Of a stretch of 8,167 bases of DNA, positions 1 through 8,167 are shown piece after piece; positions within the stretch are counted from its first letter, which is position 1, and every line of letters begins with the position of its first letter. This stretch comes from a bacterium (GTDB lineage Bacteria > UBA9089 > CG2-30-40-21 > SBAY01). Where the stretch lies: positions 1-8,167 of the forward strand of contig JBFLYA010000170.1 of NCBI GenBank assembly GCA_040757115.1, read 5' to 3'. A program made the position numbers and the translations under genes. The notes beneath the pieces are model-generated. The model saw only the letters and a program-made list of their open reading frames with translations. It was not told the DNA's origin and did not search any database.

Positions 1-46
1 TAATAGAAACTAATAGAAATTTATGGAAATTTGTTGTTTTCCACAA
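1..46 (+). repeat. Direct terminal repeat of the window, copy 1 (46 bases)
   Basis: Bases 1-46 match 8122-8167 exactly by direct reading. The repeat lies in the middle of element A, between its two inverted arms. This is what an assembler leaves when a contig closes on itself or stops at a repeated node, so it is not evidence of a biological terminal repeat. Confidence 0.95.
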
Positions 47-160
47 TCAATTTCTACCTATTTCTATAAATTTCAATCTATTTCTATTATCTTATCTCCA
101 TATCACTCTTATCTCCTTATCCCCTTTCTTACACTTTTGATATATAGCCTGAACGGTTAC
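1..160. mobile_element. Part of a GTAACCGTTCA inverted-repeat element (element A, right part, cut by window start)
   Basis: The stretch ends at 148-160 with CCTGAACGGTTAC, the shared element end. Inside it, 47-120 is rich in TTTCTAT and CTTATCTCC motifs. These are the reverse complement of the AATAGAAA and GGAGATA motifs at 8070-8145. Joined to 8045-8121 across the identical window ends, it makes a complete element of about 237 bases able to fold into one long imperfect hairpin. No protein is encoded by the element itself, as in a MITE. It overlaps the 3' end of the radical SAM gene and supplies its last 22 codons and stop. No clear target-site duplication is seen at its edges. Confidence 0.7.
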
Positions 161-1480
161 CAAAGTTTTTCCAATGCGTTTAATCACATGAGGTATCTTC
201 AGCATCTTTTCGCGAATCCATTCTGAATATTCAATTTGCTGACAAATCTGCCGTAGATGGTCAGCAGTATAATTAGTTCCAATGGTCCCCGCAAGGAGCA
301 ACAGTTTCGTCCAATCTGCTCCAATATTAGAAATTAATCCATCCTGAACAGCCTTTTCATATAATATTGTCCCTGGATATGGAAACCAGATATTGGGATA
401 AAACCGAAGACCTAAGCGGTGAAATTTACGGCGTGTTTCTTCTATAGTTCTTCTCGTTTCTCCCGGTGCAAATATACCAGCAAATGCTATCACCCTCGGG
501 ATACCCTGCTGACGACATATATTGACAGCCCGCTCCACATCAGTCCAGACAATTTGTTTATTGAACTCTTCCAGCACTGAGTTCACAGCAGATTCAACTC
601 CCAGTTCAATCTTGTAGCAACCTGAATGAGCCAGTGCCACAGCAATTTCTTCATCGACACAATCAACCCGTGTCTGGATTACATAGGGAACTTTATATCG
701 ACCAAGTAACCGACATAATTCAATTGTTTGCTTCTTATCCAGGGTAAAAGTAAGGTCTTCGAAGAAAAGACATTTACATCCTTGCACTTCAATAAGTTGG
801 TGCAATATCTTTTCCATTGAAGTTAAGGAGTGGGAACGAATTTTGAACGGTGCCAGGACACGAAAACAGAATCTACAGTTGAACGGACAACCTCGACTAC
901 ACATTAACACCCCTACTCTTCCAAATGGAAGTTTCTCAAAAATTTGCTCACATCGTCTTGAATCATACAAAAAAAAGTCAAATAATTCATAATTTGGCTC
1001 CGCCAAAATCTCTAAATATTTCGGTCCAAGTCTTCTATCATTACCTTCCAGAGCCTGTTCAATTACCCCTTCCGGCTCACCTATAATAACGCAATCAGCT
1101 TCGGAGAAATCATCGGGTGCCACAGTAGCATGGGGTCCATAAACTATAGCCCGAGCACCAGCCTGATGAGCGGCATGTATTGACTCGTGCACATGTCCCA
1201 CAAATGTCTGGCTACACCGCCAGTGACTGTATGGTGCGGTATTTACCACCACCACATCATACGGTTTTAAGTTGATGTCTTCGGGGTGTAGTGCCAGAGC
1301 ATGAGCATCAAGTATGGAAACATCAACCTTGTCTCGCAAAACTCCAGCAAGATAAGCAAAGTCCAGTGGAAGTATGCTATATCTACCAATATTGGCTGGT
1401 GTGAATGAAACATATGACCTCAGATGTTGAGGAACATACCGATTTATATCTCTATACGGATTAAGGAGTAATACTTTCAT
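92..1480 (-). CDS. B12-binding-type radical SAM enzyme
   Basis: Predicted radical SAM enzyme of 462 residues with an N-terminal cobalamin-binding-like domain. Residues 1-145 look like the Rossmann-type B12 domain: it opens MKVLLLNPY, has a hydrophobic strand VVVVN at 76-80, and shows GEPEG at 134-138, like the GEGE signature of this class. The radical SAM core follows. C198, C202 and C205 form the CxxxCxxC motif that binds the 4Fe-4S cluster. ELGVES at 292-297 and YPGT at 368-371 are typical of the family. Known relatives methylate or rearrange lipids, sugars, peptides or antibiotics; the substrate here cannot be read from the sequence. The ATG overlaps the glycosyltransferase stop as ATGA, so translation is probably coupled; GGG in AAGGGAT lies about nine bases upstream. 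Oddity: residues 441-462 are encoded inside a GTAACCGTTCA repeat element, which also supplies the TAA stop, so the native C-terminus is probably lost or replaced. The family call is firm; the function is open. Confidence 0.9.
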   Translation of the reverse strand: MKVLLLNPYRDINRYVPQHLRSYVSFTPANIGRYSILPLDFAYLAGVLRDKVDVSILDAHALALHPEDINLKPYDVVVVNTAPYSHWRCSQTFVGHVHESIHAAHQAGARAIVYGPHATVAPDDFSEADCVIIGEPEGVIEQALEGNDRRLGPKYLEILAEPNYELFDFFLYDSRRCEQIFEKLPFGRVGVLMCSRGCPFNCRFCFRVLAPFKIRSHSLTSMEKILHQLIEVQGCKCLFFEDLTFTLDKKQTIELCRLLGRYKVPYVIQTRVDCVDEEIAVALAHSGCYKIELGVESAVNSVLEEFNKQIVWTDVERAVNICRQQGIPRVIAFAGIFAPGETRRTIEETRRKFHRLGLRFYPNIWFPYPGTILYEKAVQDGLISNIGADWTKLLLLAGTIGTNYTADHLRQICQQIEYSEWIREKMLKIPHVIKRIGKTLVTVQAIYQKCKKGDKEIRVIWR

Positions 1481-4157: not shown

Positions 4158-4338
4158 TTGCCTGTTGAGTTTTTTGTAACCGTTCAGCCACAGAGGCACA
4201 GAGTTCACAAAGAATTAGAGAAATTAGCCACAAATGGACACGAATTAACCTGTGACATTCGATAAATGTAGTGCGAACCTTATTGCTTTTTCATAAATAG
4301 GTTCCTCTTTTGGGGAGAGCGATAGCAAGAAGAACTTT

Positions 4339-4470
4339 AATGTAAATATCAAAATGCAAATATCAAAATTACAATGCAAAATGCAAAAATACTTGTAAAT
4401 TAACAAAGTAGCTGGAGAATATTTTGATTTTTGATTTGTAATTTTACATTTTGATGTTTGATTTTTAATT
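4339..4470. repeat. AT-rich inverted repeat nested in element B
   Basis: The left arm, about 4339-4391, is built from CAAAATGCAAATATCAAAA-like words. The right arm, about 4420-4470, carries the inverse words TTTTGATTTTTGATTTG and ACATTTTGATGTTTGAT. The arms pair imperfectly around a spacer of about 28 bases. It looks like an independent short element that landed in B or was captured by it. Confidence 0.55.
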
Positions 4471-4544
4471 TATTTTATGGTATTCCAGAAAAGTGGAAGT
4501 TAATTTTGCAAAAACCATTAGGTTCGCTTTCCTGTTTGCCAGAA

Positions 4545-4562
4545 GCGAGGCTAAAGCCTCGC
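4545..4562. repeat. GCGAGGCT perfect hairpin (REP-like) in element B
   Basis: GCGAGGCT at 4545-4552 and AGCCTCGC at 4555-4562 form an eight-base stem with a two-base loop. It is much more GC-rich than its surroundings. Next to it, GCACTACAAAT is the inverse of ATGTAGTGC at the left side of element B. It resembles short palindromic repeats scattered in many environmental genomes. It is not followed by a T-run, so it does not read as a terminator. Confidence 0.6.
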
Positions 4563-4676
4563 ACTACAAATCTTTTTATTATTCGTGTTCATTCGTGGTT
4601 ATATATTCCCTCTGTGTTCTCTGTAACTCTGTGGCTATATCCCTGAACGGTTACCCTTTTTTCAATCTTTCCACAT

Positions 4677-4984
4677 TGAAATTTATCAATAGACCAACCT
4701 TGATATTTGCCAATTTCATATATGGTAATGGGTCAGTGAAATGGGGGATTCTCCTGAAAGTAGGAAGTAGGAGAGTAGGAAAGTAGGAAAGGGGGAGACA
4801 TTGCCCCCAGAAGAGGAATACCGTGCACATCCTTTATCCCTTTCCTACTTACCTACTACCTACTTGCCTACTATTTTCATTTCTTTGTCCTCCGCAGGTT
4901 AATGTTCATTCCCCCAAATAACTGACTTATTACCATATATGTCAATATTTGAGCTTCATGAATTCGATAATTCATCAAATTTCA
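4677..4984. repeat. Inverted-repeat element with GTAGG/CCTAC tandem arms
   Basis: An imperfect long inverted repeat. TGAAATTT at 4677-4684 pairs with AAATTTCA at 4977-4984. ATATATGGTAAT at 4719-4730 pairs with ATTACCATATAT at 4929-4940. Inside, a run of GTAGGA units at about 4760-4790 pairs with a run of CCTACT units at about 4844-4874. GGGGG at 4791-4795 and CCCCC at 4804-4808 cap the centre. No protein is visible. It lies in the 360 bases between element B and the end of the hydrolase gene. Confidence 0.6.
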
Positions 4985-5021
4985 CTTCGTGCTCTCCGTG
5001 TCCTTCGTGGTGAATAGTTAC
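4985..5021. mobile_element. Diverged single end of a GTAACCGTTCA element (element C)
   Basis: Read on the minus strand from 5021, the sequence is GTAACTATTCACC followed by ACGAAGGACACGGAGAGC. The first 13 bases match the end of element E (GTAACCGTTCACC) except for TA in place of CG, and a CACGAAGG-type repeat follows as in related elements. The matching far end was not found; it may have been lost when element B or the 4677-4984 repeat arrived. The TAA of the hydrolase stop codon is the TAA of this GTAAC. Confidence 0.5.
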
Positions 5022-6637
5022 CTCCTTTCTTGAGAACCCGACAATTCGATTTTCTCCAACCTCAGACGGTTCGAACCTTGCTTGCCTGTAAATCCTGATA
5101 TATCAAGAAATGCTATCTTGTTAACTTGTTGTATATCCAGAATGTTATTGGAATCCTTTGTGCCATCTTGCAAGGTAAAATTACGCCAGGATACAGGATA
5201 TGTTTGTCCTGGGCCACTATAAATTTGCATGCGATACTCATATCTCGCTCCACTATCTTCTTCCAGAATTATGGCTATATGGGTTGGTTGTTCAGTGTGG
5301 AGATGAAGGAGTAAGCCACTGCTACTCTTGTTGATGTTTGGCTGTTGTTTAATCAACATGGCAAATTGGTTTGCCTTGATATTGTATGACCACTCAAGAG
5401 GTTTTCCATGTTCTTGTCGAACCGATTTGGAAGTTCCAATTCCCACAAAGCCTTCAAGGGGTATCTCGCCCATTGTGTTAAGAGATGGTTGTGTTACTTC
5501 CTTTGTTACTTCTTTTTCCTCCGGGTGCATAGATTTCCATACATTCCATGCAGGTTTGGGATTCAACTTGTCATCCAGAAGTGCCAACGAAAAGAATTGT
5601 GGAGCTACCTTCTTTAATTCCGATAGAACGGGTATGTCAGGTATATCATACAAACTGACCCAACATACACCCTTTACATTTAATCCATTCAGAAGAGAAG
5701 GTACCCGTCGTATAAACTCCGCCTGTTTCTCAGGAGAACTGGGAGGTTCGACATCTGGTGAGGAGTAAAAACCGAGTTCCGCAAAGAAAATTGGCAGTTT
5801 GTTTTTTTCTTTAAGTGGCTGATAGTATTCTTTAGAAATGGTCTGTGGGTCGTATGGCTTGTGCAGGAATAGTGGATATGAAGAGATACCTAACATATCC
5901 TGTTCAACGGCTTTTTCTCCTAAAAGTTCCCACTGAGGTTTTCCTTTTTGTCCTGCAAATTGACCTATTAATAGCTCATACTGGTATGAGCAGAAGACCT
6001 TTGTATCCGGGCTTATTTGCTTAATTTCCTTGCAGAGGCTATTGAACATATCACGGAAGTTACCGTAGTCCTCCGGATGGTGCTGATAGTACATATTAAC
6101 CTCAACTGCAAGGTTGAGGTACTGTGGTTTATGTTTGTCAACGATTTTTAATACATAATTACGGAATGCGGCTTTCCATTGGGAATTCATAAGAGTCGGT
6201 AGGGCACCTTTCCAGTTGGATGGTATGCGTAAAGCGGAACGATCCCCATTGAAAGGTTCTATAGCAACATATTTTAATAATCCAGCTTTTTCGGCTCGTT
6301 CAAGCCAATCATCAATAACCTTCCGCTTTTCTTTCAATTCATTGTCTTCTATTTCATACCAGTCGTGAATCTGAACAAGAGATATCTCAGCACCTTGCTG
6401 GAGATAGGGGAAAATACGGTCTATAAATGATTTAGAACAGTCAGTAGGCCAGTATCCAATTCCTCTCTTAAAAGGTATTGTTATTAAGGATGTTTCTTCT
6501 GGCATTTTCTCACACTTGGATGATTTACACATCACGAGAAAACTCACAAGTATTATTAAGCAACTCCACCCAAGAGCCATCAAATACCAACATCCTCCTT
6601 TTCTCCATACCTTAATTTTTTGACTTTCTTTTGTCAT
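5018..6637 (-). CDS. Membrane-anchored clan GH-A-like glycoside hydrolase with C-terminal carbohydrate-binding-like domain
   Basis: Predicted exported hydrolase of 539 residues. A positive N-terminus (KVWRKGG) and one hydrophobic stretch at about 17-37 form a signal anchor. C37 could be a lipoprotein cysteine, but Met at -1 is atypical. Residues about 53-370 look like a TIM barrel related to proteins annotated as arabinogalactan endo-beta-1,4-galactanase-like. Evidence is RGIGYWPTD near the start, NLAVEVN with E179 as likely acid/base, MLGISSYPLF at 248-257, and PIFFAELGFYSS with E287 as likely nucleophile. Two Glu on separate strands fits clan GH-A, but the family number is uncertain. Residues about 385-539 are beta-rich and resemble CIA30/CBM-type binding domains. 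The ATG has a perfect AAAGGAGG nine bases upstream. The TAA stop is formed by the end of a repeat element (G-TAA-C). It lies upstream of the flippase operon on the same strand, separated by repeats; trimming or release of the exported glycan is an inference. Confidence 0.8.
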   Translation of the reverse strand: MTKESQKIKVWRKGGCWYLMALGWSCLIILVSFLVMCKSSKCEKMPEETSLITIPFKRGIGYWPTDCSKSFIDRIFPYLQQGAEISLVQIHDWYEIEDNELKEKRKVIDDWLERAEKAGLLKYVAIEPFNGDRSALRIPSNWKGALPTLMNSQWKAAFRNYVLKIVDKHKPQYLNLAVEVNMYYQHHPEDYGNFRDMFNSLCKEIKQISPDTKVFCSYQYELLIGQFAGQKGKPQWELLGEKAVEQDMLGISSYPLFLHKPYDPQTISKEYYQPLKEKNKLPIFFAELGFYSSPDVEPPSSPEKQAEFIRRVPSLLNGLNVKGVCWVSLYDIPDIPVLSELKKVAPQFFSLALLDDKLNPKPAWNVWKSMHPEEKEVTKEVTQPSLNTMGEIPLEGFVGIGTSKSVRQEHGKPLEWSYNIKANQFAMLIKQQPNINKSSSGLLLHLHTEQPTHIAIILEEDSGARYEYRMQIYSGPGQTYPVSWRNFTLQDGTKDSNNILDIQQVNKIAFLDISGFTGKQGSNRLRLEKIELSGSQERR

Positions 6638-6646
6638 AGTCTATTT

Positions 6647-6654
6647 CCTCCTTT
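6647..6654 (-). promoter_or_regulatory. Strong ribosome binding site of the glycoside hydrolase gene
   Basis: On the minus strand AAAGGAGG sits nine bases before the ATG at 6637, a full match to the anti-Shine-Dalgarno core. It fixes the start codon and suggests this gene is translated on its own, unlike the coupled trio, whose sites are weak. I found no convincing -35/-10 pair between here and the repeat element starting at 6781. Confidence 0.85.
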
Positions 6655-6780
6655 GTAAATTTAATATCTTTAGACTCCTGCAATTTGAAAATTTGTAACA
6701 CTTTACCCAAGTGAAGTCTCGACAAAAAATAGAACCACCCAGGACATAGAATGGAAAGAAGTTGAGAGGATGAGAAAATG

Positions 6781-6998
6781 GTAACCGTTCAGGTAGTGTA
6801 AATAGAGAAAAAGGGAAAGGGAGATATAATTTCTAATTTCTAATGTCTAATTGACCTAAAAAATGTTGAATAACAAAATAACTATCCTGAATTAAATTCA
6901 GGATAGGTTTTGGTCATTTAGTCATTGATTAGGGATTAGATTAATTAGGTTAATTAAAATTTTTTCCATTTTTCCCTTATTACACCTTGAACACATAC
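6781..6998. mobile_element. GTAACCGTTCA inverted-repeat element D (right end decayed)
   Basis: It starts with a perfect GTAACCGTTCAGG at 6781-6793. The right end at 6985-6998 reads, on the minus strand, GTATGTGTTCAAGG followed by TGTAATAAGGGAAAAA. This parallels the left side (GTGTAAATAGAGAAAAAGGG) with several changes. Total length is 218 bases. The interior has imperfectly inverted AT-rich words (TCTAATTGACC on the left, GGTCATTTAGTCA on the right) and a perfect palindrome at its centre. No protein. It sits about 125 bases upstream of the hydrolase ribosome binding site. Confidence 0.65.
6882..6906. repeat. Perfect 12-base palindrome at the centre of element D
   Basis: CTATCCTGAATT at 6882-6893 and AATTCAGGATAG at 6895-6906 flank a single A. 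The stem would need to open a few bases to form a loop. GTTTTGG follows on the plus strand, so a weak terminator is possible. However, no gene reads into it from the left, and the structure is more simply the apex of element D's hairpin. Confidence 0.7.
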
Positions 6999-7027
6999 AA
7001 AATTTTATATTTCTCCCTCTGCAAATG

Positions 7028-7055
7028 TCAAAGATTTCCTCATCTTTATCTTTGA
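7028..7055. repeat. Small hairpin TCAAAGAT/ATCTTTGA
   Basis: Eight-base perfect arms at 7028-7035 and 7048-7055 with a 12-base loop. No T-run and no adjacent gene. The surrounding stretch 6999-7150 holds nothing else that I can recognise. Confidence 0.35.
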
Positions 7056-7150
7056 TATAAGTGAAATAGCCATAGTTTTATTCTATCACGAAACCTTTAA
7101 TATGTCAATCAAAATTTTGTTTTTTCAGCAATTCTCGGTGAATTGTTTAT

Positions 7151-7243
7151 GGAGTGCGGTGGCTTGCCACCGCTTTCAGACTAAGTAAAAAGCAAGCATT
7201 ATCTCGTGAAGGAAGACAAAGCGAAAGCAATCTTTCACACTCC
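7151..7243. repeat. Short element with GGAGTG/CACTCC ends and a GCGGTGG hairpin
   Basis: It is bounded by GGAGTG at 7151-7156 and CACTCC at 7238-7243. Near the left end, GCGGTGG (7156-7162) and CCACCGC (7167-7173) form a seven-base stem with loop CTTG, followed by GCTTTC. GAAAGC recurs in inverse sense near the right end (about 7223-7228). GGAGTGCGG...CCGC hairpins of this kind are, from memory, dispersed repeats in several environmental phyla. No protein. Confidence 0.5.
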
Positions 7244-7283
7244 CAAAAATAAAAATCTTCGACCTGTGCAATTAGAAATAAAG

Positions 7284-7527
7284 GTAACCGTTCACCGCAG
7301 AGACACAGAGACGCAGAGAAAAAATTAAAAACTATTTACCATACGCTTCATTCCATTCCTGATTTTCATCAGAGCAAGCTTTTGAGGCCCGACATCTCAT
7401 GATTGATTAACAATCTGGTTTTGATGTCCTATGTAGTGCAATGATTGCCTCAATAATCTTTTCTGTTATCTGATTTATTTCTCTGTTCCTCTGCGTCTCT
7501 GCGGTAAATTACCACCTGAACGGTTAC
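7284..7527. mobile_element. GTAACCGTTCA inverted-repeat element E (MITE-like, best preserved)
   Basis: The ends are GTAACCGTTCA at 7284-7294 and CCTGAACGGTTAC at 7515-7527, 244 bases in total. Just inside, CCGCAGAGACACAGAGACG on the left pairs with CGTCTCTGCGG on the right. The core shows nested stems: TTGAGGC (7382-7388) with GCCTCAA (7447-7453), GACATC (7391-7396) with GATGTC (7423-7428), and GATTG with CAATC between them. This gives the whole element a folded, RNA-like layout. There is no open frame of note and no clear target-site duplication. Confidence 0.8.
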
Positions 7528-7715
7528 CTATTGTTTAACAAAGAGTTACTTCTCAAATCAACGCAATTTGGAACACGCTAAACACGTACAAAGCCCCTGA
7601 ACATCTTCCTTAATTTTCGAGAGCGTTGCAAATGGTTTTTAGTTATGGTACGGGTTGGGGAAAGTTTTGGGTGATAAAAAATGCCAAAGCGACAAAAAAG
7701 AAATAATCTGCTTAG
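7528..7715. other. Non-coding stretch without recognisable features
   Basis: Between element E and the promoter at 7716 there is no open frame with a start and ribosome binding site on either strand, no long inverted repeat and no tRNA-like structure that I can see. It may be old spacer or decayed coding sequence. Confidence 0.5.
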
Positions 7716-7744
7716 TTGACATCAAGATGAGGAAGTGTTATATA
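7716..7744 (+). promoter_or_regulatory. Sigma-70-type promoter for the transposase remnant
   Basis: TTGACA at 7716-7721 is a perfect -35 box, and TATATA at 7739-7744 is a fair -10 box, with 17 bases between them. It lies about 85 bases upstream of a ribosome binding site and ATG on the same strand, which makes a chance match less likely. Confidence 0.55.
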
Positions 7745-7818
7745 GTTGTCCCTTCTAAAGTGGTTAAAGTTTATGATTGATTAAGTCGATAAAGACAACA
7801 GAAGTAAGTTTTAAATTT

Positions 7819-7824
7819 AGGAGG
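7819..7824 (+). promoter_or_regulatory. Ribosome binding site before the ATG at 7831
   Basis: AGGAGG, extended to AGGAGGGG, lies six bases upstream of the ATG. This is why I start the reading frame at 7831 and not at the in-frame ATG at 7777, which has no such site. Confidence 0.7.
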
Positions 7825-7830
7825 GGAACA

Positions 7831-7981
7831 ATGCATCCAAATAATCAATTCTGTTGTCATGAGGTTTCAGGCAAGAGCACAGATAACGGTGGCAGTCACA
7901 GAACAGTAGAGATTTACCTGCACAGGTCGAATTTTTTTGTTGACACAAGGAAAAATTTTTGCTAAAATACCTCCAAAATAG
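7831..7981 (+). pseudogene. Decayed 5' end of a zinc-ribbon transposase gene
   Basis: The frame opened by the ATG encodes 44 residues beginning MHPNNQFCCHEVSGKS and stops at 7963-7965. I recall transposases of environmental bacteria starting MHPN-QFC, then a cysteine pair, ARGQ, an ITVHS-like strand, RF-C--CG--F and T-GK-F. The next frame (+1) continues that pattern from 7871: ARAQITV, EQ, a TAG stop at 7907-7909, then RFTCTGRIFLLTQGKIFAKIP, ending at 7979-7981. The two frames together resemble the N-terminal zinc ribbon with at least one frameshift, one stop and missing cysteines. The rest of the gene is absent; the +1 frame stays open after the second stop until it runs into element A at 8045. 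The alternative is that the 44-residue frame is a real small gene. The family resemblance is from memory. Confidence 0.45.
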
Positions 7982-8044: not shown

Positions 8045-8167
8045 GTAAGCGTTCAGGTGGTGTAACAAAAGGAGATGTGGAGATTAAGGAGATAGGGAGA
8101 TATTATTAAAAAAATTGAAATTAATAGAAACTAATAGAAATTTATGGAAATTTGTTGTTTTCCACAA
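8045..8167. mobile_element. Part of a GTAACCGTTCA inverted-repeat element (element A, left part, cut by window end)
   Basis: It begins with GTAAGCGTTCAGG at 8045-8057, one base different from the shared end GTAACCGTTCAGG. A GGAGAT-rich segment and an AATAGAAA-rich segment follow, which pair with the inverse motifs at 47-120. Bases 8122-8167 are identical to 1-46. The bases just inside the end (CAGGTGGTGTAA) resemble element D (CAGGTAGTGTAA), so A and D form one subgroup. Confidence 0.7.
8122..8167 (+). repeat. Direct terminal repeat of the window, copy 2 (46 bases)
   Basis: Exact copy of bases 1-46. If the molecule is really circular, its length would be 8121 bases and element A would be whole; if not, the contig simply stops inside a repeated element at both ends. 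Confidence 0.95.

Follow-up and report, generated by a model that had tools for sequence, protein, structure and literature searches.

Short elements with inverted ends, very probably miniature transposons of the IS66 family, in a draft bacterial genome

Several short segments without genes, each bounded by inverted copies of the sequence GTAACCGTTCA, lie within a single stretch of 8,167 bp (the window), which corresponds to contig C170 of the source draft genome G000 (4.32 Mb in 462 contigs), and this raises the question of what these segments are and what could have moved them. Exact copies of the end are present at 150-160(-), 4176-4186(+), 4644-4654(-), 6781-6791(+), 7284-7294(+) and 7517-7527(-), with further ends of the same type at 8045-8055(+) (one mismatch) and 5011-5021(-) (two mismatches). 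Allowing up to two mismatches there are nine matches in the window against 1.6 expected, a number reached in none of 200 shuffles. An earlier note made from these letters placed inverted ends around elements B and E and at the left of D, and all of them are located at those positions; the density, which it called very high, exceeds the genome mean, with six exact ends seen where ~1.05 per 8.2 kb are expected. The consensus of the conserved ends is 5'-GTAA(C/G)CGTTCA, in inverted orientation.

The end is abundant throughout the genome, with 553 exact copies of GTAACCGTTCA in the 4.32 Mb of G000 against 8 for a reversed control, and among relatives in the phylum there are 559 in the congener G001, 485 in G008 and 127 in G013. 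For family counts and duplication statistics, the sequence examined amounted to 1.14 Mb in G000 and ~0.4 Mb in each of the genomes G001 and G008. Within that part of G000, neighbouring ends less than 700 bp apart are convergent in 74 cases, compared with 7 divergent ('-+'), 12 '++' and 8 '--' arrangements, which argues against chance pairing, the possibility that the earlier note had wished to see checked. The spacing of the inverted pairs is mostly ~240 bp (median).

Many of these pairs carry the signature of transposition. An exact 8-bp target duplication flanks 31 of the 74 G000 pairs, whereas 0.5 are expected from shuffled flanks, and the same is true of 9 of 28 pairs in G008 and 12 of 22 in G001; exact direct repeats flanking the pairs are concentrated at k=8 and hardly occur at other lengths. 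In a search for pairs of up to 6 kb all those flanked by duplications are smaller than 900 bp, and a search of larger pairs for cargo genes yielded a single 1038-bp pair, which holds an ORF and has no duplication. The exact duplication is absent from 43 of the 74 G000 pairs, and also from the window elements B (with flanks agtttttt and cctttttt that agree at only 6 of 8 positions, so that no intact duplication is present), D and E; at these three the duplication could have been lost by decay or through recombination of one copy with another.

Comparisons with unoccupied sites point the same way. Five intragenomic examples could be aligned in which a filled site is longer than its empty counterpart by the element and a single 8-bp copy, the hosts being other repeats whose remaining copies are without the element. 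Eight single-copy loci were compared with G001, of which two are empty there and have a single 8-bp copy, two are filled and have the same duplication, and four match on one side only. The precise presence and absence for which the earlier note had asked is thus seen at two orthologous loci and five intragenomic sites. A reading of the pairs as static structural or regulatory repeats, such as hairpins of the REP, ERIC or BOX-like kind, would account for numerous non-coding copies and for the strong hairpin fold of E (z = -6.7), but it is contradicted by the exact 8-bp duplications and the precise empty sites, orthologous ones included, and we regard it as barely credible. The elements instead have the properties of MITEs: they are short and multi-copy, lack a transposase gene, have inverted ends and a target duplication, and are precisely present or absent at otherwise identical sites.

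Transposase genes bounded by the same ends, the other item that the earlier note had proposed to look for, are found in the source genome and beyond it. G000 contains five IS66-family matches, one of which (L029:893-2455, on contig C277) lies in a segment that is 1563 bp long and has inverted ends of 15 bp, GTAACCGTTCAGGTA, and a single IS66-family gene that is decayed by two stops. In G004, a genome of the same order, a segment of 1505 bp (L075:1339-2843) has the same 11-bp ends and one intact transposase ORF of 468 aa, which matches PF03050 (E=4.5e-39), with PF03050 and zf-IS66 both above their cut-offs. The two proteins are 40% identical, and L075 and L029 each have a single ORF and no separate tnpA/tnpB, as in the ISBst12 group. 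Related IS66 elements with GTAACCGTTCA at both ends are present in Omnitrophota, Deltaproteobacteria, Planctomycetota, Krumholzibacteriia and Treponema, and one of these related insertion sequences, L154, is flanked by a perfect 8-bp duplication. The IS66 element L074 is more distant, with 23% identity to L029, and has a different end, GTAACTACTCAGG, so that end and transposase differ together. No convincing GTAA ends were seen at the IS66 matches L081 and L085. IS66 transposase fragments also lie at the contig edges L032:1262 and L086:340, in G000 and G001, near another end type, GTAACTGCTCATCATCAAGTGG.

Since IS66 transposase elements bear the same ends in the source genome and its relatives, the elements are best explained, and with high confidence, as MITE-type miniature transposons that are non-autonomous and belong to the IS66 family (ISBst12-like group), the group name being taken from the description in PMC12898284 and general knowledge and not from comparison with ISBst12 sequences. 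The transposase-bearing and miniature elements have little in common beyond the outer 11-15 bp. The earlier note envisaged a fixed end of 11-13 bases with gene-less interiors, moved in trans by one transposase, and across the genome this finds good support in the 8-bp duplications, the empty sites and the same-end transposase elements; that a single IS66-type transposase acts in trans is the part we infer, because target duplications are missing at both L029 and L075 and the source assembly yielded no intact transposase with GTAACCGTTCA ends.

That last absence, together with G008, in which there are 485 ends and no IS66 match, could also suggest that the elements are mobile and moved by a non-IS66 transposase whose ends are similar by chance. 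Against this, every transposase found between GTAACCGTTCA ends is of the IS66 family, in several phyla (the searches used IS66 queries), and the 8-bp duplication and GTAA end suit IS66 (PMC12898284; PMC3281130); moreover, an active multi-copy insertion sequence would be the first to drop out of contigs broken at repeats. We therefore consider a non-IS66 mover very unlikely. With an IS66-type transposase as the preferred agent, an enzyme of the ISBst12-like clade would recognise ~11-15 bp at each end and could move any segment lying between two inverted copies, so that unrelated interiors can ride; elements would insert into one another to give nested arrangements, and copy-copy recombination or decay would erase many of the target duplications.

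The features of the window are listed in the table, and several depart from what the earlier note described. B was taken to be an element of 479 bp, and its ends are correct, while its length results from a ~240-bp repeat nested in an element of 242 bp; bases 1-106 and 338-479 of B match 242-bp copies at 95-99%. The diverged single end noted at about 5009-5021 is real, and belongs to the separate truncated repeat X, whose ends, GTAACTATTCA, are related to the GTAACCGTTCA-type end. More complete X copies at L072 and L022 have the left part that is missing in the window, and no target duplications were seen in eight pairs of X-type elements. The L072 copy lacks F and has a single CATATATG; the F duplication is nevertheless weaker evidence than the others because CATATATG is palindromic, and other sampled F copies have no clean duplication.

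Table. Repeat elements and partial copies in the window
Feature	Coordinates	Strand	Description
B	4176..4654	.	IS66-end MITE of the 242-bp type, made longer by a nested repeat; subterminal CCACAGAG octamers; ends at 4176-4186 and 4644-4654
Repeat nested in B	4279..4521	.	~243 bp, boundaries approximate; 98-100% identical to L044:5256-5498, L023 and other genome copies
X	4655..5021	.	truncated at the junction with B, where its left part is missing; GTAACTATTCACCACGAAG ends, the right one at 5011-5021
F	4725..4933	.	inside X; GTAA...TTAC element with ends GTAATGGGTCAGT / GTAATAAGTCAGT (GTAAT type); CATATATG on both sides (4717-4724, 4934-4941)
D	6781..6998	.	left end intact; right end with 3 mismatches (TGAACACATAC), decayed
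E	7284..7527	.	full-length 244-bp member of the largest family, with subterminal CCGCAGAG octamers
Left 123 bp of a 237-bp-type copy	8045..8167	+	cut by the contig end; 100% identical to complete copies, e.g. L059:13946-14182
Right 160 bp of a 237-bp-type copy	1..160	-	interrupted by the contig start; matches complete 237-bp copies at 100%

The decay that the earlier note saw at the right end of D is confirmed by its mismatches, and another copy (L064:19188-19425) matches D only in the outer 38 bp on each side. E is 96% identical to L024:4193-4436, and its asymmetric right end, which had been read as an exchange between two types, is normal for its family. No empty site for E turned up in G000 or G001; both of its flanks belong to separate repeats. 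The segment A, described previously as one element running across the ends of the window, is better seen as two half-copies: bases 1-46 are the same as 8122-8167, both halves equal the multi-copy 237-bp element, and the 8 bp outside their ends differ (aaataatt and caaagttt), indicating that the contig was broken inside a repeat. A circular element or plasmid was also considered for A and rejected, as the shared 46 bp lie inside a multi-copy repeat. No Rfam match above the gathering score was found in the window.

Clustering of 125 elements from the three genomes shows that the description of the cores as unrelated was too strong, since most of them fall into a few multi-copy families, the three largest being those of E (37 members), B (21) and the A halves (16). 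All members of these three come from G000 or G001, and the elements of G008 form clusters of their own. In G000, 13 of 14 copies of the 237-bp family are at least 99% identical, and this near-identity suggests a recent spread.

Just inside most ends in the three genomes are arrays of octamers, NCRCNRAG, which are inverted at the two ends. The distance between a GTAA-type end and an array of at least two octamers is no more than 30 bp in 109 of 155 cases for G000, and in 42 of 47 and 32 of 43 cases for G008 and G001, respectively. The combination of end and array was seen in 7 of 386 genomes, of which three belong outside the phylum, and its reversed control in none. Arrays that vary around one pattern in three genomes could mean that the interiors are diverged descendants of one ancestral miniature element and not independently acquired cargo. 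The 237-bp family and several singletons lack arrays, however, as do the transposase-bearing elements L029 and L075, and cores do not cluster between families; a common ancestry for the interiors thus seems somewhat unlikely to us. Some arrays sit behind other ends, such as an ACCTGTGC end and a TTAACC end. More speculatively, and in our estimation doubtful, the arrays might be a putative functional module (e.g. a binding site for a host factor or the transposase) recruited behind IS66-type and other ends in several phyla, with ends and subterminal modules assorting independently; the measured part of this reading is the association of arrays with ends. A repeat at L015:2053-2158 and L037:19834-19939 has TTAACCACAAAG ends and octamer arrays with no GTAA end, and no target duplication longer than 3 bp was present in five pairs of it.

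Elements of this general kind are already known. ISDge4, a member of the ISBst12 group, has a single ORF and the end GTAACTGCTCAGCA, and generates an 8-bp direct repeat upon transposition (PMC12898284), and two IS66 elements with 8-bp repeats have been described (PMC3281130). The elements reported here share with IS66 and the ISBst12 group (ISDge4) the GTAA... end, the 8-bp target duplication and, in the transposase-bearing copies, a single-ORF DDE transposase, but those of the window lack a transposase, have only an inverted end of ~11-15 bp in common, and have interiors that are not recognisably derived from an insertion sequence. The prokaryotic MITEs Correia, Chunjie, MITEAba12 and MITECca01 (reviewed in PMC10969869; PMC9769881, 169 copies) are likewise short and non-coding, with inverted ends, target duplications, high copy numbers and nesting in mobile elements; here, by contrast, several unrelated interior families occur under one end in one genome. 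Elements with Tn3-family ends similarly have conserved ends, variable cores and a proposed movement in trans, and their target duplications are often missing, which has been ascribed to recombination between copies, but they differ in having 38-bp ends and a low copy number. A limited literature search found no description of IS66-derived MITEs, nor of a high-copy set with several unrelated interiors.

Very abundant repeats of a poorly known bacterial lineage are thereby tied to a named transposase family. The findings suggest that a short IS66 end may suffice for the high-copy spread of unrelated interiors, which can be tested directly and bears on the minimal substrate of the ISBst12-group transposases, a group that has been little studied. 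To judge by the presence of the end-plus-octamer structure in other phyla, repeats of this kind would seem to be under-annotated and to cause breaks in draft assemblies.

Some further observations concern the surroundings of these elements. The locus orthologous to that of B was considered as a clean empty site in G001 and rejected; B and X are absent there, but homology halts at window position 4174 and restarts at 5030, with a radical-SAM gene between. This radical-SAM stretch, at the place of B, X and F (window 4176-5021), is at L127:3131-4236 in G001, and the source genome has a 74% relative at L018:811-1796. A radical-SAM ORF at 92-1480 (- strand) of the window extends by ~23 codons into the contig-start repeat (window 92-160), which is the source of its last residues and stop codon. 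Another family of repeats with inverted ends, (G)ACCTGTGCRATTAG..., is also present (window 7258-7941; L098:11441-11698), and E sits between two such ends; copies of this family are flanked by an exact 10-bp repeat, gaaagatttc, in one case in G008 and by a repeat matching at 9 of 10 positions in one case in G001.
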